DNA of 10,417 nucleotides from Candidatus Zixiibacteriota bacterium (GTDB lineage Bacteria; SM23-81), in the NCBI GenBank assembly GCA_030628225.1, contig DAOVRJ010000069.1, positions 1 through 10,417 on the forward strand. The letters run 5' to 3'. Position numbers and translations under genes: made by a program. The notes below the pieces were generated by a model. It had not been told where the DNA came from. It worked only from the letters and a program-made list of their open reading frames with translations, and ran no database searches. This document shows positions 1-10,417 of this stretch, piece by piece. How positions within the stretch are numbered: position 1 is the stretch's first letter; every line of letters begins with the position of its first letter.

Positions 1-74
1 ATTTCTATAAGATCCGGGCTAAATGGGAGAACCAAACAGTCCACAAGACGGGCAAGCTGGCCATTCTCAAATAA
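1..74 (+). CDS. C-terminal end of a protein with a T9SS/FlgD-like tail (5' partial)
   Basis: Reading from base 3, an open frame runs off the left edge and stops at TAA 72-74, giving a 23-residue end that begins FYKIRA and closes KTGKLAILK. The pattern (aromatic-aromatic, basic, polar stretch, then a basic residue followed by a short hydrophobic run and a final Lys) is the usual last strand of FlgD-like Ig domains and of type A T9SS sorting domains, which commonly end like FYRL...TKKMVLLK. The two bases before it (AT) would fit a Tyr codon, as in the family's GxYFY motif. In T9SS organisms such tails direct export across the outer membrane and are removed or coupled to a surface glycan. Only 23 codons are visible, so the body of the protein is unknown and T9SS versus plain FlgD-like cannot be decided. 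It ends 13 bases before the PorV-like gene. Confidence 0.55.
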   Translation, partial: FYKIRAKWENQTVHKTGKLAILK

Positions 75-87
75 ACGGAAGGGCGCA

Positions 88-1137
88 ATGCCGCAGAACC
101 GGGAAAACGGATTGAGACGAACATACCAAAAAAACTGGCCTGCTATCGCTGCGGCCATCTGCATGGTCTGGGTGCTGAGTCTGGCCCCGGCCGTCAGGGC
201 CGACCATTACGCCGGGGAGTTCCTGCAGGTGGCTGTGGGCGCCCGGGCCCTGGGCCTTGGAGGGGCTTATTGCTCCCTGACACAGGACGGATGGGGCCCT
301 TACTGGAACCCGGCGGGCAGCGCCTACCAGGAGCGAGTGGAGCTCTCGCTGATGCACGCCACCCTGTTTGACCTGGCCCAGCACGAATACCTCAACCTGG
401 CCTTACCCTTGCCCAACCGGGCCACTTTTAGCTTAAGCTGGATACGGCTCGGCGTCGACGATATACCCGTGTTCCCGGATCCCGGCCGGACCTCAGATGG
501 AGAGCTTCGTCCCGTTGAGGAGTGGGCCATCGACCCGGAAGAGTTCTTCAACGATTCCGAGGATGCCTTCATCTTCACATTTGCTAAGATGATTAACGTG
601 AACCTGGATCTGGGCTGGCAGTATTTTGTCGTACCCCTGAAGATACCCGTGGGCTTGAACCTGAAGTACATACATCAGAGCCTGGGAGATGCCTCCGCTA
701 CCGGCATGGGCGTTGACCTGGGTGCGCAATTAGGATTCGGTATGGACAGGCTCCTGGACTTCGATCCATTGGGAGACTTCGCCGCCGGCTTGAACCTGCA
801 GAATATAGGCAAAACGGCCCTCAGTTGGGATACAGAGACCCGGCATCGCGACCACATACCCTTCAACCTCAAGTTCGGCTTCAGCTACCTGCAACCCCTG
901 TCCGCCGCGGGAACAGAGGCCATATTCGCCTACGACCGCGATACCGTTTACGGCGGCAAGAACCACTTTGGTCTGGAATTTGCCTACCGGAACTTGCTGG
1001 CCCTGCGCATAGGGGCGGAGGGAAAGGAATTGACCATGGGGGCGGGACTGCACATCTGGCAACTTAACCTGGACTATGCCTTCATATCCTACAGTCTCGG
1101 GAACATCCACCGGATCAGCGGTTCGGTGAGTTTTTGA
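88..1137 (+). CDS. PorV/PorQ-family outer-membrane beta-barrel protein
   Basis: A 349-residue exported barrel protein. Residues 1-38 look like a signal peptide: a long basic n-region, a hydrophobic core around residues 19-33, and likely cleavage after V-R-A38. The mature start (AGEFLQVAVGARALGLGGAY, then DGWGPYWNPAGSA) is the hallmark of the PorV/PorQ (UPF0164-like) family, whose consensus is FL..G.GARA.GMGGA followed by NPAG. The rest alternates amphipathic strands and turns, and the protein ends SGSVSF with a terminal Phe, as expected for a BAM-recognised barrel. PorV proper is a T9SS outer-membrane component that shuttles cargo; many family members in FCB phyla have unknown roles. The frame is open to the window edge, but ATG 88 has a GGAAGGG site (77-83) just upstream and gives a sensible signal peptide. 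It probably forms an operon with the downstream lipoprotein (21-base gap). Confidence 0.85.
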   Translation: MPQNRENGLRRTYQKNWPAIAAAICMVWVLSLAPAVRADHYAGEFLQVAVGARALGLGGAYCSLTQDGWGPYWNPAGSAYQERVELSLMHATLFDLAQHEYLNLALPLPNRATFSLSWIRLGVDDIPVFPDPGRTSDGELRPVEEWAIDPEEFFNDSEDAFIFTFAKMINVNLDLGWQYFVVPLKIPVGLNLKYIHQSLGDASATGMGVDLGAQLGFGMDRLLDFDPLGDFAAGLNLQNIGKTALSWDTETRHRDHIPFNLKFGFSYLQPLSAAGTEAIFAYDRDTVYGGKNHFGLEFAYRNLLALRIGAEGKELTMGAGLHIWQLNLDYAFISYSLGNIHRISGSVSF

Positions 1138-1144
1138 CCGCAAC

Positions 1145-1150
1145 AGGAGG
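1145..1150 (+). promoter_or_regulatory. Shine-Dalgarno site fixing a TTG start
   Basis: AGGAGG lies 8 bases before TTG 1159. It supports this TTG as the true start, because that start places the lipoprotein signal peptide exactly at the N-terminus. Confidence 0.8.
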
Positions 1151-1158
1151 ATAGATCG

Positions 1159-1908
1159 TTGCCCAGAAAATACCAGCACATACTTCTCGGATTTCTCCTG
1201 ACGGCGTATCTATTGGGCCTGGCCGGCTGTTCCGACAAAAGCACGCCGGCAGACACCACTCCACCGGACCCGCCGGTGCTGTTGCCTTCGCCGGCGGACA
1301 GCTCCTGGGACGAAACGGGCACGGACGCCATCCCCGATGAAAATTACATCCAGCTGGTCTGGTTGATGGGAACGGAGGACGACCTGAGCGGCTACAAAAT
1401 CTATCGGTCGTCGCCTCCTCTGGAGATGTTGACCCTTCTGGCCACCAAAACCCTGGGCAGCGGAGTTTGCGATACCGTCTACGATGACCAATCCGTTGAA
1501 ATCGGAGTGCGCTATTTGTACACGGTAACCGCCTTCGACCAGGCCGGCAACGAGAGCGAGTGGTCGGGGGAAGTGGACTACATGCTCATCCCCAAGCTGA
1601 GCGATGAATCTCTCACCTCTCCTCGGGGAGAGATCGGGGAAAGACAGCCGACTTTCATCTGGATATCCACGGGAGAATCCATGGCGAACTATCTCCGGGT
1701 TTACGACGTTTTGGATGAACGCACCGTGTGGGTGAGCCCGGGGCAGAATCCCTTCTCCTCACCCCACTCGGTTTTCTACAACGAAGACGGAACCGCCGCC
1801 GATACGCTGTTGACCCCGGGCCGCCAATACTGGTGGCGAGTGGACCGGCAGGGCAGCGAGCTGCGCTCGGGGTCGGAGTCGAGATGGGTGAGTTTTACTG
1901 TGAAGTAA
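1159..1908 (+). CDS. Lipoprotein with two fibronectin-III-like domains
   Basis: A 249-residue protein with a TTG start. The n-region MPRKYQ, a hydrophobic core (residues 8-21) and lipobox L21-A-G-C24 predict cleavage by signal peptidase II and lipidation on Cys24; the S-D after Cys could matter for sorting. A Pro/Thr-rich linker (about 27-45) precedes a first FN3-like domain (about 36-142) with GYKIYRSS, YLYTVTAFDQAGNES and a closing WSG. A second FN3-like domain (about 153-249) has PTFIWIS, then YWWRV and a final strand WVSFTV. No catalytic motif is visible, so this is probably a surface or periplasmic adhesion or scaffold protein. It directly follows the PorV-like gene, suggesting the two act in the same outer-membrane process. 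I do not recognise a named family beyond the FN3 fold, and the substrate or partner is unknown. Confidence 0.8.
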   Translation: MPRKYQHILLGFLLTAYLLGLAGCSDKSTPADTTPPDPPVLLPSPADSSWDETGTDAIPDENYIQLVWLMGTEDDLSGYKIYRSSPPLEMLTLLATKTLGSGVCDTVYDDQSVEIGVRYLYTVTAFDQAGNESEWSGEVDYMLIPKLSDESLTSPRGEIGERQPTFIWISTGESMANYLRVYDVLDERTVWVSPGQNPFSSPHSVFYNEDGTAADTLLTPGRQYWWRVDRQGSELRSGSESRWVSFTVK

Positions 1909-2038
1909 GAGATAGAGCGTTGAGAAAGTTAAGCGAGTTGAGAGTTTAAAGAGTTCTGAGAGATCAATCTTTCCACGATTCACGACACCCGATTCGCGTA
2001 ATGCACTTCGAAGCCGATAAACGACTTTCCAATTCTTT

Positions 2039-2055
2039 CACGGACACGGATCACG
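2039..2055 (+). repeat. Short CACG-unit repeat cluster
   Basis: Two perfect tandem CACGGA units (2039-2044 and 2045-2050) are followed by TCACG (2051-2055), so CACG recurs three times in 17 bases. A related stretch, CACGATTCACGACAC, starts at 1975 in the same gap. The units could be a regulator-binding array or the remnant of a dispersed intergenic repeat. Confidence 0.4.
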
Positions 2056-2090
2056 ATGTTAGCTCGAATCCTATTATCCCAACTATCAAC

Positions 2091-2096
2091 AAGGAG
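2091..2096 (+). promoter_or_regulatory. Shine-Dalgarno site choosing ATG 2104
   Basis: AAGGAG sits 7 bases before ATG 2104. The longer possible frame from TTG/ATG codons near 2056 has no such site and would bury the signal peptide behind 16 extra residues, so ATG 2104 is preferred. Confidence 0.75.
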
Positions 2097-2103
2097 CACC
2101 TTC

Positions 2104-2613
2104 ATGCTGAAAAACTGGCGGGGCTGGGCAGCGGCTCTTCTCCTGATGGCCCTGGGGCTCCAGCTGGGCATATCTCCCCTTCTGGGGCAGGAAGATAGGG
2201 AGTATTCCGGAACTTCCGGAGCTCGATCTCCGCGGTATTACCTTTCTCTGGGCACCGAGGATGCCTTGACGATCAAGATCTTCATCTGGGGGCAGGTAGA
2301 ACAACCTGGTGTATATGAGGTGCCGGATGGCACAGATCTCATCGCCGCCCTCTCCCTGGCCGGTGGTCCCACAGACTATGCCAAGCTCAGCGAGGTGCGG
2401 GTCATCCGCTCCGACGGCACAGATTCGGAGGTGTTGACGATCAACGTCAAAGAATACATGGATACCGGGGATATCAGCTTAATTCCCGTGCTCAAGCCAA
2501 GAGACACGGTGGTCGTCTCCGCAACCGTCTTTCGCATGTTTTACAGATTTGCCGCATTTGTCTCTCAGATAGCCATCGTGGCTAACGTCATCTGGCTCGT
2601 TTCGAACCGATGA
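2104..2613 (+). CDS. Small SLBB-domain polysaccharide export protein
   Basis: A 169-residue protein. Residues 1-28 form a Sec signal peptide (basic start, hydrophobic core 9-23, cleavage near LLG28/Q29); no lipobox Cys is present. An SLBB beta-grasp domain spans about residues 55-138. Its signature includes KIFIWGQVEQPGVYEV (58-73), the helix DLIAALSLAGGPTDYA (78-93), the strand EVRVIRSDG (97-105) and the PRDTVVV end strand (132-138). Residues 146-166 (around QIAIVANVIWLV) form a single hydrophobic C-terminal helix. Proteins of the Wza/OPX class normally carry a Poly_export domain before SLBB; that part is absent here, so this is a minimal form. It lies 24 bases before the Wzc-type kinase, its usual partner, which supports a role in exporting a surface polysaccharide. 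It may be an accessory or periplasmic ring protein rather than the outer-membrane channel itself. Confidence 0.85.
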   Translation: MLKNWRGWAAALLLMALGLQLGISPLLGQEDREYSGTSGARSPRYYLSLGTEDALTIKIFIWGQVEQPGVYEVPDGTDLIAALSLAGGPTDYAKLSEVRVIRSDGTDSEVLTINVKEYMDTGDISLIPVLKPRDTVVVSATVFRMFYRFAAFVSQIAIVANVIWLVSNR

Positions 2614-2624
2614 CAAGTATCCTT

Positions 2625-2631
2625 AAGGAGG
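2625..2631 (+). promoter_or_regulatory. Strong Shine-Dalgarno site fixing TTG 2638
   Basis: AAGGAGG lies 6 bases before TTG 2638. The protein from this TTG begins directly with the Wzz domain (ERPVALNDYLRVFYRGRW), so the rare start is well supported. Confidence 0.8.
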
Positions 2632-2637
2632 TTAAAC

Positions 2638-4899
2638 TTGGCGGAATTAGAAGAGCGCCCAGTGGCATTGAATGACTATCTGCGCGTCTTTTATCGGGGC
2701 CGTTGGATCATCGCCCTGGCTTTCTTTAGCACAGTTATCGCTGCGCTTATCTTTTCTTTCGCGATCAGCCCGGTCTACGAGGCCAAAACCACCTTGATGA
2801 TCGAGAAGGACGGGGGCATGCAGCGCTCCCTGTTCGGAGTCTCCGGCTTTATGGAGCGGGAGACGGAGATCAACAACCAGGTGGAGATCCTGAAAAGCAG
2901 AACTCTGGCCGAGGAGATCGTGGCCAGGCTCAAAAAAGCACCGGAACGGGACCGGTTCGGCCTGCTCAGGGCCATGGACGAAGGGGCCACTGAAGATGAC
3001 ATGGTCAGGACCCTGCGAAGCAATTTGACCATCGTACCGCTCAGGGACACCGATATCATCGAAATACGATATCGGGCCGTCACGCCCTGGGAGGTTTCCT
3101 ATATCGCCAATGCCTATGCCGATCAGTATTACCGGCGTGATCTGGAGGTCTCCCGCGGTGAGATCACAGAGGTGCGCCAGTTTCTCAAGGAGCAGTTGAA
3201 AAACATCCAGGAGATCCTGCAGCAATCAGAGGAGGATTTGCGCCAGTTCAAGGAGCAGAAGAAGGTGGCCGCCCTGTCGGAGGAGACCGAGGCACTGGTC
3301 AAGCAGTTGGCCGAATTCGAGGGCCTTTACAACGAGGCTAAAACCTCGCGGGATGCCACCCAGAAGCGCCTGGACTACATAAAGGGGAAGCTGGCCAAAA
3401 CCAAGAGCACCATGGTAGAGGACATCACCCAGGTTTCCAGTCCCCTTATTCAGAAGCTGCGCAAGGAGATCTCCAGCCTGGAGGCCATCAGGGCAGGGTT
3501 TATCGCCCGGGGGTACACCGAGGATTTCGACAAGATGGTGGAGATCCAATCTCAGGTCGAGAAGACCAAGACCAAGATGAAGGAGGAGACCAGCAAACTG
3601 ATCTCCAGAGATCTGGCGCCGGAGAACCCTCTGGCCTATTGTCAAGACCTGATCGACCGGATCCTCTCCCTGCAGATCGAGGTCAGCTCTCTGAACGCCA
3701 AGGTTCAGGCTCTGGGCAGCGTGGTCAAGACATACGAGATAAAACTCCAGTCCCTTCCGGAGAAAAGCCTTCGCTTAGCCCGGCTGGAGCGAGCGGCCAA
3801 GGTGAACGAGAACATCTACCTGATGATGCGGGAGAAATACGAGGAGGCCCGGATCACCGAGGCCGGCCAGATAGGCATGGTACGCATCATCGACCGGGCC
3901 AAGGAACCCCGTTACCCCATTCGCCCCAAAAAGAAACTCAACCTCCTCCTAGGGGCTATCATCGGGTTGGGCCTGGGCATCGGCATCACCCTGCTTTTGG
4001 ACTATATGGACGATTCCCTCAAGAGCATCGAGGATGTGGAGCGCCACACCGGCCTGCGGATCCTGGGCTCTATTCCGGAGATCAAGACCAGCGAGAAGGT
4101 AAAATCTCGGCGAAGGGCCCGGGATGTGTCTCCAGAGCGCACGGTTAAACAGATCGCCTCGCGAATGGTCACTCACTTCGAGCCCAAATCGCCCGTCTCG
4201 GAGGCGTATCGCACCTTCCGCACCAACATCCAGTTCGCCCGGTTCGAACACCCACTCAAGACCCTGCTGGTCACCAGCGCCGGCCCCGGCGAGGGCAAAT
4301 CCACCACCGTGGCCAACCTGGCCATCACCATGGCCCAGATGGGGACAAAAACCCTTCTGGTCGATGCCGACCTGAGGCGACCGGTATTGCATTCCATATT
4401 CGAGCAGGAGAAAAACCTGGGACTCACCAATGTCCTTCTGGGCAACACCCATGTAGACGATGCCATACATGAATTGGGGGTGAAAAACCTGAACCTTCTC
4501 TGCTGCGGCACCCTGCCACCCAACCCCTCTGAGCTGCTGGGCTCAGAAGCCATGAGAAAGCTGATGGAACAGCTCAAGGAAAAATATGACATCATCCTGT
4601 TTGACTCTCCGCCGGTGGTGGCCGTCACAGATGCTGCGGTACTTAGCGCCCAGATCGACGGTGTCATCCTGGTCATCTCCTCAGGAGAAACTACCCGTAA
4701 CGCCGAGATTCGCGCCAAGACGTTGCTGAACAACGTCCGCGCCCAGATCCTGGGAGCGGTGTTGAACAATGTGAAGATGGCCGGCCGTTACGGCTCCTAC
4801 TATTATTACTACTACTATCACTACTACGGACCCCGGGGCGAAACCGACAGGAAAGGAAAAAAGAAGAGAAGGAAAGGAAAGAAAAGAACCCACTATTAA
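2638..4899 (+). CDS. Wzc-type chain-length regulator fused to a BY tyrosine kinase
   Basis: A 753-residue inner-membrane protein. The N-terminal Wzz domain (about 8-100) includes the first membrane helix (23-43). A long periplasmic region rich in charged heptads (about 170-400) predicts coiled coils. A GNVR-like segment and the Pro-rich PRYPIRP (424-430) lead into the second membrane helix (about 434-454). The cytoplasmic kinase has the EX2RX2R oligomerisation motif (E522, R525, R528), Walker A GPGEGKST (549-556, Lys554), Walker A' LLVDADLRRP (573-582) and Walker B IILFDSPP (652-659). The tail has Tyr718, seven consecutive Tyr (721-727), Tyr729-730 and a terminal Tyr753. In this family, autophosphorylation of the Tyr cluster in trans cycles the octamer and sets polymer length and export. 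Between cluster and end lies an unusual basic stretch (738-750, 11 of 13 Lys/Arg). No cognate phosphatase lies in the window. TTG start supported by a strong SD. Confidence 0.95.
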   Translation: MAELEERPVALNDYLRVFYRGRWIIALAFFSTVIAALIFSFAISPVYEAKTTLMIEKDGGMQRSLFGVSGFMERETEINNQVEILKSRTLAEEIVARLKKAPERDRFGLLRAMDEGATEDDMVRTLRSNLTIVPLRDTDIIEIRYRAVTPWEVSYIANAYADQYYRRDLEVSRGEITEVRQFLKEQLKNIQEILQQSEEDLRQFKEQKKVAALSEETEALVKQLAEFEGLYNEAKTSRDATQKRLDYIKGKLAKTKSTMVEDITQVSSPLIQKLRKEISSLEAIRAGFIARGYTEDFDKMVEIQSQVEKTKTKMKEETSKLISRDLAPENPLAYCQDLIDRILSLQIEVSSLNAKVQALGSVVKTYEIKLQSLPEKSLRLARLERAAKVNENIYLMMREKYEEARITEAGQIGMVRIIDRAKEPRYPIRPKKKLNLLLGAIIGLGLGIGITLLLDYMDDSLKSIEDVERHTGLRILGSIPEIKTSEKVKSRRRARDVSPERTVKQIASRMVTHFEPKSPVSEAYRTFRTNIQFARFEHPLKTLLVTSAGPGEGKSTTVANLAITMAQMGTKTLLVDADLRRPVLHSIFEQEKNLGLTNVLLGNTHVDDAIHELGVKNLNLLCCGTLPPNPSELLGSEAMRKLMEQLKEKYDIILFDSPPVVAVTDAAVLSAQIDGVILVISSGETTRNAEIRAKTLLNNVRAQILGAVLNNVKMAGRYGSYYYYYYYHYYGPRGETDRKGKKKRRKGKKRTHY
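4798..4827 (+). repeat. TAY-codon run encoding the poly-Tyr cluster
   Basis: Ten consecutive codons are TAC or TAT, except one CAC in eighth place. They encode Tyr x7, His, Tyr x2 near the end of the kinase. The mixture of TAC and TAT shows that the Tyr run is kept by selection rather than being a fresh slippage product. Confidence 0.75.
4849..4888 (+). repeat. Forty-base homopurine tract
   Basis: From 4849 to 4888 the + strand contains only A and G, with repeated GGAAA/GAAAA units. It encodes the Lys/Arg/Gly tail of the kinase and ends 14 bases before the ribosome site of the next gene. Such tracts can slip during replication or form triplex structures. Confidence 0.7.
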
Positions 4900-4911
4900 A
4901 GGGAGGAATAC

Positions 4912-5631
4912 GTGAAGGGAATAGTTTTGGCGGGTGGCTTGGGAACCAGGATGTTGCCCCTGACGAAAATCACCAACAAGCATCTTCTGCCCGTTTTCAA
5001 CAAACCGATGATCTATTACCCCATTCAAACTCTGGTGGACGCAGGCATCGAGGACATCCTCTTGGTCACCGGGGGCACCAATGCCGGGGACTTTCTACGT
5101 CTGCTGGGCAACGGCAAGGAGTTCGGCCTGAAGCATCTCAACTACACCTACCAGGAGGGGGAAGGCGGCATCGCCGAGGCCCTGGGGCTGGCCGAATATT
5201 TCGCCGCTGGTGAAAAGATCGTGGTCATCCTGGGAGATAATCTTCTCCAGCAAGGGATCAAAAAAGCTGTGGACAACTTTCAGCGCCAGGAGAGGGGAGC
5301 AAAAATACTGCTCAAGGAGGTTTCCCAACCCCAGAGATTCGGGGTCGCCGAGATTAGTGGAGACCGCATCGTGAGCATCGAGGAGAAACCCGAGGCTCCC
5401 AAAAGCAACTTCATCGTCACCGGCTTCTACATGTACGACAGCCAGGTCTTCGACATCGTCAAGGCCCTGAAGCCTTCGGCCCGAGGCGAGCTGGAGATCA
5501 CCGACGTGAACAACGCATATATCGAACAGGGAACCATGACCTTTGAAATCTTAGAGGGCTGGTGGACGGATGCCGGCACCTTCGAATCCCTGTACAACGC
5601 CACCTGTCTTATAGCCGAGAAAACCCTTTGA
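4912..5631 (+). CDS. RmlA-like sugar-1-phosphate nucleotidyltransferase, short form
   Basis: A 239-residue enzyme with a GTG start 5 bases after GGAGG (4902-4906). It joins an NTP to a sugar-1-phosphate, releasing pyrophosphate, in the cytoplasm. The nucleotide-binding signature GGLGTRMLPLTKITNKHLLPV (8-28) is intact. VILGDN (105-110) supplies the metal-binding Asp109, EEKP (157-160) carries the substrate-contacting Lys159, and TGFYMYD (170-176) and WWTDAGTFES near the end are typical of glucose-1-phosphate thymidylyltransferases. RmlA of the dTDP-rhamnose pathway is usually about 290 residues; this one lacks roughly the last 50, matching the compact group of sugar nucleotidyltransferases. 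No rmlB, rmlC or rmlD homologue is nearby, so dTDP-glucose is the best guess but the product is not settled. It sits 12 bases after the kinase gene and 14 before the dehydrogenase, within one operon. Confidence 0.88.
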   Translation: MKGIVLAGGLGTRMLPLTKITNKHLLPVFNKPMIYYPIQTLVDAGIEDILLVTGGTNAGDFLRLLGNGKEFGLKHLNYTYQEGEGGIAEALGLAEYFAAGEKIVVILGDNLLQQGIKKAVDNFQRQERGAKILLKEVSQPQRFGVAEISGDRIVSIEEKPEAPKSNFIVTGFYMYDSQVFDIVKALKPSARGELEITDVNNAYIEQGTMTFEILEGWWTDAGTFESLYNATCLIAEKTL

Positions 5632-5632
5632 C

Positions 5633-5638
5633 AAGGAG
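5633..5638 (+). promoter_or_regulatory. Shine-Dalgarno site choosing ATG 5646
   Basis: AAGGAG is 7 bases before ATG 5646. A longer frame opens at GTG 5562, but that would overlap the preceding gene by 70 bases and add 28 residues unlike any dehydrogenase. ATG 5646 is therefore chosen. Confidence 0.85.
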
Positions 5639-5645
5639 CTGTTGC

Positions 5646-6950
5646 ATGGAGAATCTGCGGCATAAGATCGAGAAGATGCGAGCCCTGGTGGGCGTGATTG
5701 GTCTGGGCTATGTTGGCCTTCCTCTTGCCGTAGAGTTCGCCAAGGTCGGGTTCAAGGTCACGGGCATCGACCGCTGGAAAAAAAAGGTGGTCACCATCAA
5801 TGCCGGTAAATCGGATGTTGAAGATGTGCCCGGCTCCACCGTGGCCACACTGGTGGCCTCCAAGAAATTGACGGCCACCACCAGCTACACAGCCATCCAG
5901 GAACTCGACGTGATCCTCATCTGCGTGCCCACACCTCTGGGAAAAACCAAAGACCCGGACGTCTCGTTCATCCTCGCGGCAGTGAGAGGAATCAAAAAAC
6001 ACCTTCATCCCGGGCAATTGATCATCCTGGAGAGCACCACTTACCCTGGTACCACCGATGAGCTGATCCTGCCCATTCTGGAGGAAACCGGACTGAAGGT
6101 GGGCCAGGATTTCTTTTTGGCCTTTTCTCCTGAACGTATCGATCCGGGCAACAAGACATTTGGAGTGAAGAACACCCCCAAGGTTGTGGGTGGCATCACC
6201 AAACTATGCACTCAGATGGGCAAGCTGTTCTATGAACAGGTCATCTCAGAAGTAGTCAGCGTTTCCTCCACTAAGAGCGCAGAGATGGTCAAGCTGCTGG
6301 AAAACACCTTCCGCAGCGTCAACATCGGCCTGGTCAACGAGACTGCCCTGATGTGCGACCGGCTGGGCATCGACATCTGGGAGGTGATCGATGCGGCAGC
6401 AACCAAACCTTTCGGGTACATGCCCTTCTATCCGGGGCCCGGGCTGGGCGGCCATTGCATTCCTATCGACCCCCACTATCTCTCCTGGAAGCTGAAAACC
6501 CTGAACTACTGGGCCCGCTTCATCGAGCTGGCCGGGGACATCAACGCCAACATGCCCGCCTACGTGGTCGGCAAGGTCAGCGACGCCCTGAATCGGGAGT
6601 GCAAGAGCATCAGGGGATCCAAGATCCTCATCCTGGGAGCGGCATACAAGCCGGACACCTCCGACGTGCGGGAGTCGCCGGCCCTGGACGTAATCGAGCT
6701 CCTTCAGAAAAAAGGCGCTCAGGTCCAGTACAACGACCCCCATGTGCCCAAATTGCCCATGGATAAGAGCAACCTGTCCTCAGCAGAGCTCACCGTCAAA
6801 CTGGTCAAAGAGGCGGATTGCGTGGTAATCATCACCGACCACAGCATATACGATTATCAGTGGATCGTCGACAATGCCCGGTGCGTGGTGGACACCAGAA
6901 ATGCCACCAAAGGAACGCTGGGCAACGAGAAAAAGATCATCAAACTCTAA
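5646..6950 (+). CDS. wbpA: UDP-N-acetylglucosamine 6-dehydrogenase (WbpA type)
   Basis: A 434-residue NAD-dependent nucleotide-sugar dehydrogenase of the UDP-Glc/GDP-Man family. It oxidises C6 of the sugar twice to give a uronic acid. The N-terminal Rossmann fold has GLGYVGLP (19-26) with Asp42 after the second strand. ESTTYPGTT (129-137) is the conserved active-site loop, and the catalytic Cys271 lies in GPGLGGHCIPIDP (264-276). The C-terminal domain has ILGAAYKPDTSDVRESPA, the usual UDP-binding stretch. SPERIDPG (161-168) is typical of dehydrogenases that act on UDP-N-acetyl sugars (WbpA, WecC, TviB) rather than on UDP-glucose, where NPEFLREG is found. With the WbpB, D, I and E homologues immediately downstream, UDP-GlcNAc is the most likely substrate and UDP-GlcNAcA the product. 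All catalytic elements are present and the length is normal. Confidence 0.93.
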   Translation: MENLRHKIEKMRALVGVIGLGYVGLPLAVEFAKVGFKVTGIDRWKKKVVTINAGKSDVEDVPGSTVATLVASKKLTATTSYTAIQELDVILICVPTPLGKTKDPDVSFILAAVRGIKKHLHPGQLIILESTTYPGTTDELILPILEETGLKVGQDFFLAFSPERIDPGNKTFGVKNTPKVVGGITKLCTQMGKLFYEQVISEVVSVSSTKSAEMVKLLENTFRSVNIGLVNETALMCDRLGIDIWEVIDAAATKPFGYMPFYPGPGLGGHCIPIDPHYLSWKLKTLNYWARFIELAGDINANMPAYVVGKVSDALNRECKSIRGSKILILGAAYKPDTSDVRESPALDVIELLQKKGAQVQYNDPHVPKLPMDKSNLSSAELTVKLVKEADCVVIITDHSIYDYQWIVDNARCVVDTRNATKGTLGNEKKIIKL

Positions 6951-6975
6951 TCGGTAAGCATTCCCAGGAGGAACA

Positions 6976-7986
6976 ATGGTACGTCTTGCCGTTGTGGGAT
7001 CCGGAGCGTGGGGATTCAATCACGTGCGCACCTTCAATCAGCTGCCAGATTGCAAGCTCCAGGTGGTAGTGGACAGGGACGAGGGGGCGCTGGCCAGGGT
7101 GAGGGGAAGCTTCCGCGATCTGGAAACGGAAAGGGATTATCGCACCGTGGTCAGCCGAGGGAACCTTGATGCCGTCGTGGTGGCCTCCAGCGCTGAGAGT
7201 CATTACGAGATCGCCAAAGCCGCCCTGATGGCCAACAAGCACGTGCTGGTGGAGAAACCCCTGGTCCTGCAGACACAGCAGGGAGAGGAGCTGGTCCGGC
7301 TGGCCGAGGACAAAGGCCTGGTGCTCATGGTGGGTCACCTGCTGCTTTATCACCCTGCCGTCCGCAAGCTGAAGGAATACGTGGATGGTGGGGAGCTGGG
7401 CCAGGTTTACTACATGTACTCCAGCCGCATCAACCTGGGAAAGGTACGCACCGCCGAAAACGCTCTCTTGAGCTTTGCTCCTCACGATATCTCTGTTATG
7501 CTCTTCCTGCTGGGGATGATGCCGGATCTGGCCTCGGCCACAGGCCAGTCCTATCTCAACCCGGGGGTGGAAGATGTGACCTTCTTCAGCCTCCATTTTC
7601 CCAACAACGTCATAGGCCACGGGCAGGTTAGCTGGCTGGACCCGCACAAAGTCCGCAAGATCACTGTGGTGGGCAGCAAAAAGATGGTCGTATTTGACGA
7701 CATGGAGAGCGCCGAGAAGATCAAACTGTACGATAAAGGGGTAGATGCTCCGCAGTCTTATGATACCTACGGAGAGTATCAGACCCTGAGGATCGGGGAC
7801 ATCCTCATCCCCAAGATCCAGATGTCCGAGCCGCTGAAGAACGAGTGCCAGCACTTTTTAGACTGCGTGCAGCGTGGTGAAAAACCGATCAGCGATGGCC
7901 AGGACGGGCTGCGGGTGCTGCGCGTCTTAGAGGCTACCCAGAAGTCCCTGGACAACCGGGGGCAGCCCGTGGAGCTGAAATTCTAG
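6976..7986 (+). CDS. wbpB: Gfo/Idh/MocA oxidoreductase, WbpB-like UDP-GlcNAcA 3-dehydrogenase
   Basis: A 336-residue protein of the Gfo/Idh/MocA family. The N-terminal Rossmann domain shows VVGSGAWGFNHVRTF (6-20) and Asp33 at the end of the second strand. VEKPL (92-96) holds the family's conserved Lys94, and FAPHDISV (167-174) supplies the likely catalytic His170. YYMYSSRINLGKVR fits the WbpB/WlbA subgroup. These enzymes oxidise C3 of UDP-GlcNAcA to a 3-keto sugar; in Pseudomonas, WbpB recycles its NADH with 2-oxoglutarate and depends on the WbpE aminotransferase to pull the reaction. Both partners are present here. The start ATG 6976 follows AGGAGG (6966-6971). The gene lies 25 bases after wbpA. 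Family assignment is certain; the exact substrate is inferred from the neighbours. Confidence 0.9.
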   Translation: MVRLAVVGSGAWGFNHVRTFNQLPDCKLQVVVDRDEGALARVRGSFRDLETERDYRTVVSRGNLDAVVVASSAESHYEIAKAALMANKHVLVEKPLVLQTQQGEELVRLAEDKGLVLMVGHLLLYHPAVRKLKEYVDGGELGQVYYMYSSRINLGKVRTAENALLSFAPHDISVMLFLLGMMPDLASATGQSYLNPGVEDVTFFSLHFPNNVIGHGQVSWLDPHKVRKITVVGSKKMVVFDDMESAEKIKLYDKGVDAPQSYDTYGEYQTLRIGDILIPKIQMSEPLKNECQHFLDCVQRGEKPISDGQDGLRVLRVLEATQKSLDNRGQPVELKF

Positions 7987-8036
7987 GACAAGCCGGACCC
8001 CACGTCAGGCATCGGGTTCGTGAAAAAGGAGGGGCA

Positions 8037-8786
8037 GTGACAAAAATCATCCATGCCACGGCCATGGTCGGAGAGAACACCACCATCGGAGAGAATACCA
8101 TCATCTCCCAGGGTGTGACCATCGGCACGGATTGTCTCATTGGCCATGGAGTGATCATCCACCCCCATGTCCGCATCGGAAAAAATGTGCGCATCGATGA
8201 CCATACCGTCATCGGCAAACAACCCATGCGGGCGGCCAATAGCATCCTCAAGACGGAGGACCATCTCCCGCCGGCGGTGATCGGCGACGACTGCACTATA
8301 GGCACCTCTGTGATCATCTACACCGGCTGCCAGATCGGACAGAAGGTGCTGGTGGCCGATTACGCCTCGGTGCGCGAGAACACGAGGGTGGGCGACTACA
8401 CCATCGTGGGCCGGGGGGTAACCGTGGAGAACTACTGCACCGTGGGCCGCTACTGCAAGTTAGAAACCGAAAGCTATATCACCGCTTACTCGGTCCTGGA
8501 GGACCGGGTCTTCATAGCTCCCCAGGTGACCACCTCCAACGACAACTACGTCGGGCGCACCAAGGAGCGATTTAAGCATTTCAAAGGCATCACCGTGAAA
8601 AAGGGCGGCCGGATCGGCGTCGGAGCGGTGGTGCTGCCCGGCAAGGTCATCGGCGAGGACGCCCTGGTGGCCGGCGGATCGGTGGTCACCAGAGACGTGC
8701 CGCCCAGAAAGATCGTCCGCGGGGCACCGGCGCGGGTAGTGAGAGATGTGCCCAAGGAACAGTTGCTGGAGAACCAAGGTTGGTGA
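8037..8786 (+). CDS. wbpD: Left-handed beta-helix N-acetyltransferase, WbpD-like, extended form
   Basis: A 249-residue hexapeptide-repeat acyltransferase. Repeats of the [LIV]-G-x-x-x-x type run through the protein: a first block at residues 5-60 (VGENTTIGENTIISQGVTIG and onward), an irregular loop at about 61-79 (KQPMRAANSILKTEDHLPP), a second block at 80-165, a loop with TSNDNYVGRTKERFKHF (166-182), and a last block ending GGSVVTRDVPPRKIVRGAPARVV. The loop and end match WbpD/WlbB enzymes, which acetylate the 3-amino group of UDP-GlcNAc3NA with acetyl-CoA. Those are about 190 residues; here extra N-terminal coils lengthen the helix. The GTG start follows AGGAGGGG (8027-8034). It overlaps the next gene. 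Acetyltransferase activity is likely; a different acyl group is possible. Confidence 0.85.
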   Translation: MTKIIHATAMVGENTTIGENTIISQGVTIGTDCLIGHGVIIHPHVRIGKNVRIDDHTVIGKQPMRAANSILKTEDHLPPAVIGDDCTIGTSVIIYTGCQIGQKVLVADYASVRENTRVGDYTIVGRGVTVENYCTVGRYCKLETESYITAYSVLEDRVFIAPQVTTSNDNYVGRTKERFKHFKGITVKKGGRIGVGAVVLPGKVIGEDALVAGGSVVTRDVPPRKIVRGAPARVVRDVPKEQLLENQGW

Positions 8787-9922
8787 GACCCGGAGCAAAA
8801 ATCTTCCTGGTGGCCGGGGCCCGACCCAACTTCATGAAGATCGCCCCTATCCTGGACCAGTTGAGGAAGCGAGCCCAATTCCGGCCAATATTGATCCATA
8901 CCGGTCAGCACTACGACGACGTCATGTCGCGGGCCTTCTTTCGGGACCTGGATCTTCTGTCTCCGGACGTGAACTTAGGGGTGGGCTCGGGCAGCCAGGC
9001 TCAGCAGACCGGCCGTATCATGCAGGAGTTCGAGCGGGTGGTTGTGAAGAGACCGCCTGATCTGGTAATGGTGGTGGGAGATGTTAACTCCACGGTGGCC
9101 TGCTCGTTGGTGGCGGCCAAGCGACACATCCCCGTGGCTCACGTGGAGGCGGGACTACGCAGTTTCGACCGCCGCATGCCGGAGGAGATCAACCGGGTGC
9201 TTACCGACGCCATCTCCGACTACCTGTTCACCTCCTGCTCAGATGCCGACGAGAACCTGCTCCGTGAGGGTGTGCCCGGGGAGAAAATTTTCTTCGTGGG
9301 CAACGTGATGATCGACTCCCTGCTGAAGTTTCGGGAGAAGTCCAAAAGCTCCACCATCATGGAGAATCTAAGCCTCCGCCGGCGGGAATATGTCCTGATG
9401 ACCCTGCATCGGCCCTCTAACGTTGACGAACCCAAGATCCTGCGGGGCATTCTCCGCGCCGTGGGGCAAATTCAGCAGCGCATGCCGGTCGTCTTTCCCA
9501 TCCACCCGCGTTCCCGGAAAATGCTGCAGAAATTTGGACTGGAGAAGGAAATCGCCGGGGTCTCCAACCTGCGGGTCATCGACCCAATGGGCTATATCGA
9601 TTTCCTGAGATTGATGGATCAGGCCCGGCTGGTGCTCACCGATTCCGGCGGGATCCAGGAGGAGACCACCGTGCTGGGCATCCCCTGCCTGACTCTGAGG
9701 GAGAACACCGAGCGGCCCATCACCGTCCGTGAGGGCACCAACCGGGTGGTGGGCACAGATCCGCAGCGGATCATCCGGGAGACCGAAGCCATCCTGGAGG
9801 GTCAGCCGGTGAGGCCCCGAAAACCCAAGTTCTGGGATGGCCGGGCCGCCGCCAGAATCGTGGATATACTGTCGAAAACGATGAATTTCCCCCAAGCCCC
9901 GGAAAAACGGAGGAGACGATGA
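8780..9922 (+). CDS. wbpI: UDP-N-acetyl sugar 2-epimerase (WbpI/WecB family)
   Basis: A 380-residue GT-B-fold non-hydrolysing epimerase that inverts C2 of a UDP-HexNAc-type sugar. Visible motifs are [14 protein letters not shown] (11-24), HTGQHYD (40-46), VGDVNST (99-105; Asp101), [19 protein letters not shown] (121-139; Glu123 and Glu135/136), the catalytic-type His210 in [17 protein letters not shown] (288-295) and RENTERP. They correspond to the catalytic Asp, Glu and His of E. coli WecB. Context favours UDP-GlcNAc3NAcA as substrate, giving the manno form as in Pseudomonas WbpI, but plain UDP-GlcNAc cannot be excluded. The start is TTG 8780 (8 bases after GGAG 8768-8771) or GTG 8783, which makes a GTGA stop-start overlap with the preceding gene; the two differ by one codon. 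Its last codons encode Arg x4 because they contain the ribosome site of the next gene. Confidence 0.92.
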
Positions 9923-10417
9923 ATGTTCCCCTGCTGGATCTGAAAGCCCAGTACGCAACCATCAAAGACGAGCTCAGGACGGCGGTGGACGAGATCATGG
10001 AAAGCTGCCGCTTTATCCTCGGCCCCTACGTACAGAATTTCGAGGAGGCGGTGGCTGCCTATTCGAAAACAAAATATGCCGTGGGGGTTGCCTCTGGTAC
10101 GGACGCTCTGCTCCTCTCCCTGCGAGCCTGCGGGGTCGGCGACGGCGATGAGGTGATCACCACTCCCTACACCTTCTTCGCCACGGCGGGAGTGATCTCC
10201 CGGCTGGGAGGTGTCCCCGTCTTCGTGGACATCGATCCCCAAACTTACAACATCAACCCGGATCTCATCGGCGAGAAGATCACGCCGCGCACCAAGGTCA
10301 TCATGCCGGTCCATCTGTTCGGCCAGTGCGCCCGGATGGATCCCATCCTGGCCCTGGCCGAGAAGCACAACCTGAAGGTGGTGGAGGACGCCGCTCAGGC
10401 CATTGGAGCGGAGTATC
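9919..10417 (+). CDS. wbpE: DegT/DnrJ/EryC1/StrS aminotransferase, WbpE-like (3' partial)
   Basis: The first 166 codons of a PLP-dependent sugar aminotransferase, cut by the window end. The N-terminus [10 protein letters not shown], the segment [17 protein letters not shown] (32-48), the phosphate-binding [10 protein letters not shown] (59-68), [11 protein letters not shown] (81-91), FVDIDP (102-107), PVHLFGQ (130-136) and [11 protein letters not shown] (156-166) are all family hallmarks. Asp157 and Gln160 match the residues that hold the PLP ring. The Schiff-base Lys, expected about 25 residues further on, lies beyond the window. In the Wbp pathway this enzyme aminates the 3-keto sugar made by WbpB using glutamate, which also regenerates 2-oxoglutarate. 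ATG 9919 follows GGAGG (9909-9913) and overlaps the epimerase stop in ATGA, so translation is probably coupled. Confidence 0.93.

Follow-up and report, generated by a model that had tools for sequence, protein, structure and literature searches.

A second PorU-like sortase and its partner genes beside a Wbp-type polysaccharide locus outside Bacteroidota: a possible second attachment module of the type IX secretion system

In Porphyromonas gingivalis, the sortase PorU cleaves the C-terminal tail of proteins exported by the type IX secretion system (T9SS) and attaches the anionic lipopolysaccharide (A-LPS) brought by PorZ, with PorV acting as the shuttle (PMC8545088). The linking sugar through which PorU, PorV and PorZ join cargo to A-LPS is made by the Wbp pathway (PMC8545088, PMC7468200), and in both P. 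gingivalis and T. forsythia it also requires VimE and VimA (PMC7468200). The T9SS has been described as specific to Bacteroidetes (e.g. PMC7463736), and the literature describes it with one PorU sortase. We report here on a stretch of 10,417 nucleotides (positions 1-10417, hereafter the window), which is the whole of contig C298 of a genome bin of 2.34 Mb (306 contigs, 92% complete). The nearest named relative of this organism is Zixibacteria bacterium SM23_81, which places it outside Bacteroidota, a possibility already raised from the sequence. The window carries the back end of a conserved and apparently undescribed gene set, whose members are a second PorU-like sortase, a PorV-like barrel of its own, a lipoprotein and a small SLBB protein; alongside canonical PorU we find a sortase of a second clade, which comes with a separate PorV and two further partners that are new. 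We propose that this is a second T9SS attachment module, heading a Wzc-type polysaccharide locus, whose cargo would be linked to the surface polysaccharide, and to this explanation as a whole we give a probability of about 0.45.

Evidence for this proposal comes from a search with the sortase profile in 39 genomes of another phylum, where the neighbours were read at 60 loci, in whose selection the neighbouring genes played no part. In the resulting trees, which are quick ones with SH-aLRT (Shimodaira-Hasegawa-like approximate likelihood ratio test) support only and in which several rows have an odd composition or long branches, the canonical PorU proteins form one clade (32 rows, support 100) that includes the PorU on contig C166 of the window's own genome, and a second clade (23 rows, support 98) unites the window sortase, the paralogue found on contig C9 of SM23_81 and on contig C43 of the own genome, along with 19 sortases from the other phylum. 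The tree of the PorV proteins shows the same division. At all 15 readable second-clade loci of the other phylum the genes follow the order sortase, PorV, Fn3-like lipoprotein, SLBB protein, four more loci being cut by contig ends; at the canonical PorU loci, PorV was found at 28 and the lipoprotein or SLBB protein at none of these 28, 27 of which have 3.7 kb or more of readable sequence. Another 386 genomes, taken as an additional sample, added 8 second-clade loci from further families, with PorV and the lipoprotein at every one and the SLBB protein at five, together with 12 other PorU-like loci that have neither the lipoprotein nor the SLBB protein. We consider it likely that the module is a second attachment system. 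Within the open-access literature, where absence is not a proof, we found no description of it under PorU paralogues, PorU2 or SLBB with PorU.

All the named parts of the window lie on the + strand, and SM23_81 keeps the same order of 11 genes, from the sortase end and the PorV-like barrel through to the Wbp pathway, so that the physical linkage originally predicted between these parts is confirmed on one contig and by its conservation in the relative; the original interpretation as a whole is supported in part. The parts are the following:

3..74, + strand: 3' end of a PorU-family (C25) sortase, last 23 codons and stop (frame 3 reading; 87% identity to the SM23_81 tail)
88..1137, + strand: outer-membrane barrel of the PorV/PorQ family, the partner PorV of the second-clade sortase (NF033709; PorV tree)
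1159..1908, + strand: lipoprotein with Ig/Fn3-like domains, conserved third gene of the module (lipobox LAGC, conserved family)
2056..2613, + strand: small SLBB protein, conserved fourth gene of the module (PF10531 44 bits, family consensus)
2638..4899, + strand: Wzc-type chain-length determinant and tyrosine autokinase, Wzz/GNVR (PF02706, PF13807, TIGR01007)
4912..5631, + strand: RmlA-like sugar-1-phosphate nucleotidylyltransferase, short form of 239 residues (PF00483; TIGR01207)
5646..6950, + strand: NDP-sugar dehydrogenase, WbpA-like (TIGR03026; solved relatives)
6976..7986, + strand: Gfo/Idh oxidoreductase, WbpB-like (PF01408; NF040723)
8037..8786, + strand: left-handed beta-helix (LbH) acetyltransferase, WbpD-like (PF00132; QdtC, 3mqg)
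8780..9922, + strand: UDP-2,3-diacetamido-2,3-dideoxyglucuronate 2-epimerase, WbpI-type (solved relatives of that name)
9919..10417, + strand: DegT-type aminotransferase, WbpE-like, truncated by the contig end (PF01041; SM23_81 orthologue)

The first of these parts was originally taken for the end of a cargo protein with a T9SS-like tail. The tail is real, but its matches in SM23_81 identify it as the end of a PorU-family sortase cut by the contig edge. It is read in frame 3 (codons 3-71, stop 72-74; FYKIRAKWENQTVHKTGKLAILK) and, being 23 residues long, is too short to be scored by itself; the matching end in SM23_81 is identical to it over 87% of these 23 residues. The 94-residue SM23_81 tail carries its own C-terminal domain of T9SS type (FlgD_ig, 35 bits, cut-off 27), among NCBIfam models it matches best the final 90 positions of PorU (36 bits), and it stays under the cut-off of TIGR04183 (21 bits against 23); elsewhere in both genomes it is best matched by PorU-like sortase tails. 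In SM23_81, contig C38 ends in an open sortase frame and shares with the start of the tail contig an overlap of 77 bases, 75 of them identical, as read by eye from the contig ends; the tail frame is broken near base 100 of the tail contig, which may be a sequencing error. In the window's own genome, contig C26 carries the front half of the orthologous sortase, 72% identical to that of C38 and with the same upstream gene. Given this overlap within the sortase frame and the identity between C26 and C38, the first codons of the window encode the very end of a PorU-family sortase, and a cargo end is rejected; we infer that C26 and C298 hold the two parts of one sortase gene.

For this second sortase the best model match is PorU. 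The protein on C38 of SM23_81 contains a C25 peptidase domain (PF01364, 300 bits) and a C25-propeptide domain, and an alignment with canonical PorU indicates that the catalytic His (GHG) and Cys (TC) are retained in the paralogues that reach that region; the pair is intact in the SM23_81 orthologue, and the own C26 piece stops before it. The cut-off of the PorU model NF033707 (420) is reached neither by the SM23_81 orthologue (289) nor by the paralogues on SM23_81 C9 (388) and own C43 (335), whereas the canonical PorU of the own C166, which is followed by two PorV genes, scores 743 bits. A lack of SprA/Sov or PorU in the genome would have refuted the original idea of a T9SS-linked locus, and on this test it was not refuted: besides canonical PorU, the own genome encodes the SprA/Sov translocon (TIGR04189, 632 bits, cut-off 200) and 61 sorting tails above cut-off.

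The barrel of the window belongs to the PorV/PorQ family (NF033709, 106 bits, cut-off 90), and it does not reach the cut-off of the T9SS PorV model NF033710 (38 bits against 250). Its placement in the module clade, apart from canonical PorV, makes it the partner of the second sortase, and on this point the original reading is not supported as it stood; model scores and tree together rule out canonical PorV, PorQ and PorV2. The lipoprotein has the lipobox LAGC and a weak match to the Pfam family Ig_Rha78A_N. The fourth protein is small, with a signal peptide, an SLBB domain of the sort usually met in proteins of polysaccharide export, and a hydrophobic stretch at its C-terminal end; no Wza pore domain was seen in it by domain scans or in the family consensus; its true start may be a later ATG, at about 2104, because the SM23_81 orthologue begins there. 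Structure predictions from single sequences were unusable (mean predicted local distance difference test, pLDDT, of 30 for PorV and 53 for the SLBB protein).

Directly after the module, in the window's family, come the Wzc-type gene (TIGR01007, 226 bits, cut-off 108) and the Wbp genes. At the C9 locus of SM23_81, downstream of the paralogous sortase, lie PorV, GalE, a Wza-type export protein, Wzz, an XrtA-associated ATPase (330 bits, cut-off 324.5), a kinase, glycosyltransferases, WecA, Wzy and Wzx, so that in this genome both PorU paralogues, and not canonical PorU, head polysaccharide loci; at the own C43 paralogue the contig ends within the PorV gene, and no such neighbourhood is visible there. 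The position of the module at a polysaccharide locus points to an acidic polysaccharide of the cell surface as a possible tether for secreted proteins, and we hold the link between the module and the neighbouring polysaccharide to be about an even chance. Some other PorU-like sortases (G086:C7, G359:C58, G083:C4, G086:C211) adjoin WecA, glycosyltransferase, GalE/LegB or DegT genes, and neighbourhoods of sortase and polysaccharide genes may therefore be wider than the window's family.

The earlier gene calls (barrel, lipoprotein, polysaccharide export parts and WbpA, B, D, I and E) are borne out by the NF033709 match, the lipobox, the SLBB and Wzc assignments and the scores to solved relatives, with the reservation that among the Wbp calls WbpI and WbpE are the best supported and WbpA, B and D stand at family level, their specificities being predicted from sequence. 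The WbpI-type epimerase scores 331 bits to solved UDP-2,3-diacetamido-2,3-dideoxyglucuronate 2-epimerases against 192 for the WecB-type 1vgv, and the SM23_81 orthologue of the aminotransferase gives 315 bits to WbpE and 331 to QdtB. The WbpA-like dehydrogenase is well above the TIGR03026 cut-off (447 bits against 190), with Cap5O and UDP-ManNAc dehydrogenases as its nearest solved relatives; the WbpB-like oxidoreductase stays under the cut-off of the UDP-GlcNAc 3-dehydrogenase model NF040723 (192 bits against 450); the nearest solved relative of the WbpD-like acetyltransferase is QdtC (97 bits), with a further match to 3mqg, a lipopolysaccharide biosynthesis acetyltransferase (55 bits). From what is established on the Wbp pathway, the expected product would be UDP-ManNAc(3NAc)A; the original view of the diacetamido-uronic acid as the covalent anchor would make this sugar a candidate linker. 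The RmlA-like gene, under the TIGR01207 cut-off (246 bits against 361), is short, and the window holds no RmlB, RmlC or RmlD gene.

Some further loci deserve mention for their own sake. On the own contig C173 (4327-7748) an exosortase gene (PF09721, 252 bits) directly follows a FemAB/VimA-related gene (TIGR03019, 377 bits) and a glucuronyl C5-epimerase, among glycosyltransferases; this is the only place in the own genome where TIGR03019 is above cut-off, and in SM23_81 it remains below. With a GC content of 52% and a lower tetranucleotide correlation, C173 is possibly an acquired or mis-binned contig. On the own contig C89 (188-5250) a PorV2-like barrel (NF052325, 183 bits, cut-off 325) directly follows the type IV pilus genes PilQ and PilM. 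In one family of the other genomes (f31; L102 9412-13674, also L101 and L104) three conserved genes come after the module, encoding a protein with an FlgT_N domain, one that weakly matches an outer-membrane barrel, and a DUF6175 protein. The genomes of f31 also encode a third PorU-like protein, of about 1180-1210 residues, with no PorV match nearby and with conserved neighbours of its own (about 730, 1560, 126, 123, 213, 200 and 167 residues).

Several observations weigh against our proposal. Outside the window's family the four-gene module adjoins housekeeping genes, and none of the related module loci inspected in other lineages showed a Wbp block, so that the recurrence of the Wbp cluster that the original prediction looked for in relatives was not encountered beyond this family, and the link could be a matter of chance in one family. 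The Vim-like genes it also called for were not recognised either: reading the 20 kb SM23_81 locus by eye showed no VimA, VimE or WbpS (no genome-wide search for VimE or WbpS was made), which leaves the pathway without the step by which a free amine would arise. The own sortase is split over C26 and C298, and these two contigs show no overlap. Finally, the search for motor components, made with PF12081 only, finds no PorM/GldM in the own genome or in SM23_81 despite the presence of SprA and PorU, and this motor may be divergent or replaced in both.

The first two of these points also speak for a simpler explanation, in which the four genes are a genuine T9SS accessory working on ordinary lipopolysaccharide, processing or attaching a subset of the cargo, with the polysaccharide genes as chance neighbours: most lineages have no polysaccharide locus beside the module, and no Vim step is recognised in the locus. 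We regard this as possible but somewhat doubtful, since it leaves aside that in SM23_81 polysaccharide loci are headed by both PorU paralogues and not by canonical PorU, and that an SLBB protein is part of the module itself. One could also think that the paralogue is a maturation protease acting on secreted proteins or on the polysaccharide machinery without covalent attachment. The gingipain proteases are members of family C25, and the score of 289 against 420 with the PorU model is compatible with such a role; we nevertheless find it unlikely, PorU being the best model match and the gene adjoining PorV as canonical PorU does. That sorting at the polysaccharide locus is the work of an exosortase-type system, the PorU-like genes being incidental, could be argued from the single exosortase with its FemAB gene on C173 and from the XrtA-associated genes at the C9 locus. 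SM23_81, however, has the same loci and no exosortase match, by which an exosortase as the sorter in both genomes is rejected, and C173 is not joined to the window; we think this scenario very improbable.

Returning to a second attachment module linked to polysaccharide, the gene set and its conservation are read from the sequences themselves, and we put forward the reaction, its cargo and its acceptor by analogy with Porphyromonas. The PorV paralogue would receive a selection of T9SS cargo from SprA and hand it to the paralogous sortase, which would cut off the C-terminal domain of the cargo and couple the C-terminus so exposed to an amine of a surface polysaccharide; this polysaccharide would be presented by the lipoprotein and the SLBB protein, in the way that A-LPS is presented by PorZ in Porphyromonas, and the acceptor in the window's family would be the acidic polysaccharide made by the neighbouring genes. 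Tentatively, we would go further and suggest that in several lineages a second T9SS attachment machine uses an exported polysaccharide, in place of A-LPS, as the anchor for a subset of the cargo, each PorU paralogue of the window's family having been captured by a particular polysaccharide locus, in parallel to the exosortase loci. The module offers a testable route into the sorting of cargo between anchors, the part of PorZ outside Porphyromonas and the fixing of proteins to capsule or exopolysaccharide, and the families of the lipoprotein and of the SLBB protein lend themselves as markers in the search for further systems of this kind.

How does the module compare with what has been described? 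It has in common with the PorU2 and PorV2 of NCBIfam (NF052324, NF052325) that an additional PorU-like sortase, comparable in size, adjoins a PorV-like barrel, but its proteins are far under the cut-offs (238 of 450 and 114 of 325, respectively), and the one genome above both cut-offs has PorV2 ahead of PorU2, without lipoprotein or SLBB protein; we have rejected this identity on scores, gene order and partner genes. Exosortase/PEP-CTERM (XrtA) loci resemble it in that a C-terminal sorting enzyme heads polysaccharide genes, with an XrtA-associated ATPase present at SM23_81 C9, and differ in that the sorting enzyme here is of PorU/C25 type and comes with PorV, SM23_81 having no exosortase match. 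The Wbp/Vim linking-sugar pathway (PMC7468200) has its counterpart in the single run of WbpA, B, D, I and E homologues, which here is joined to a sortase module and accompanied by an RmlA-like gene and Wzc. The T9SS attachment complex of P. gingivalis (PorU, PorV, PorQ, PorZ; PMC8545088, PMC5562754) is alike in its C25 sortase, which has its own tail and lies beside a PorV-family barrel, and in the genome context, with SprA and many sorting tails. The window's module differs from it by having separate sortase and PorV clades, which stand alongside canonical PorU rather than replacing it, and the places of PorQ and PorZ would be taken by the Fn3-like lipoprotein and the SLBB protein.

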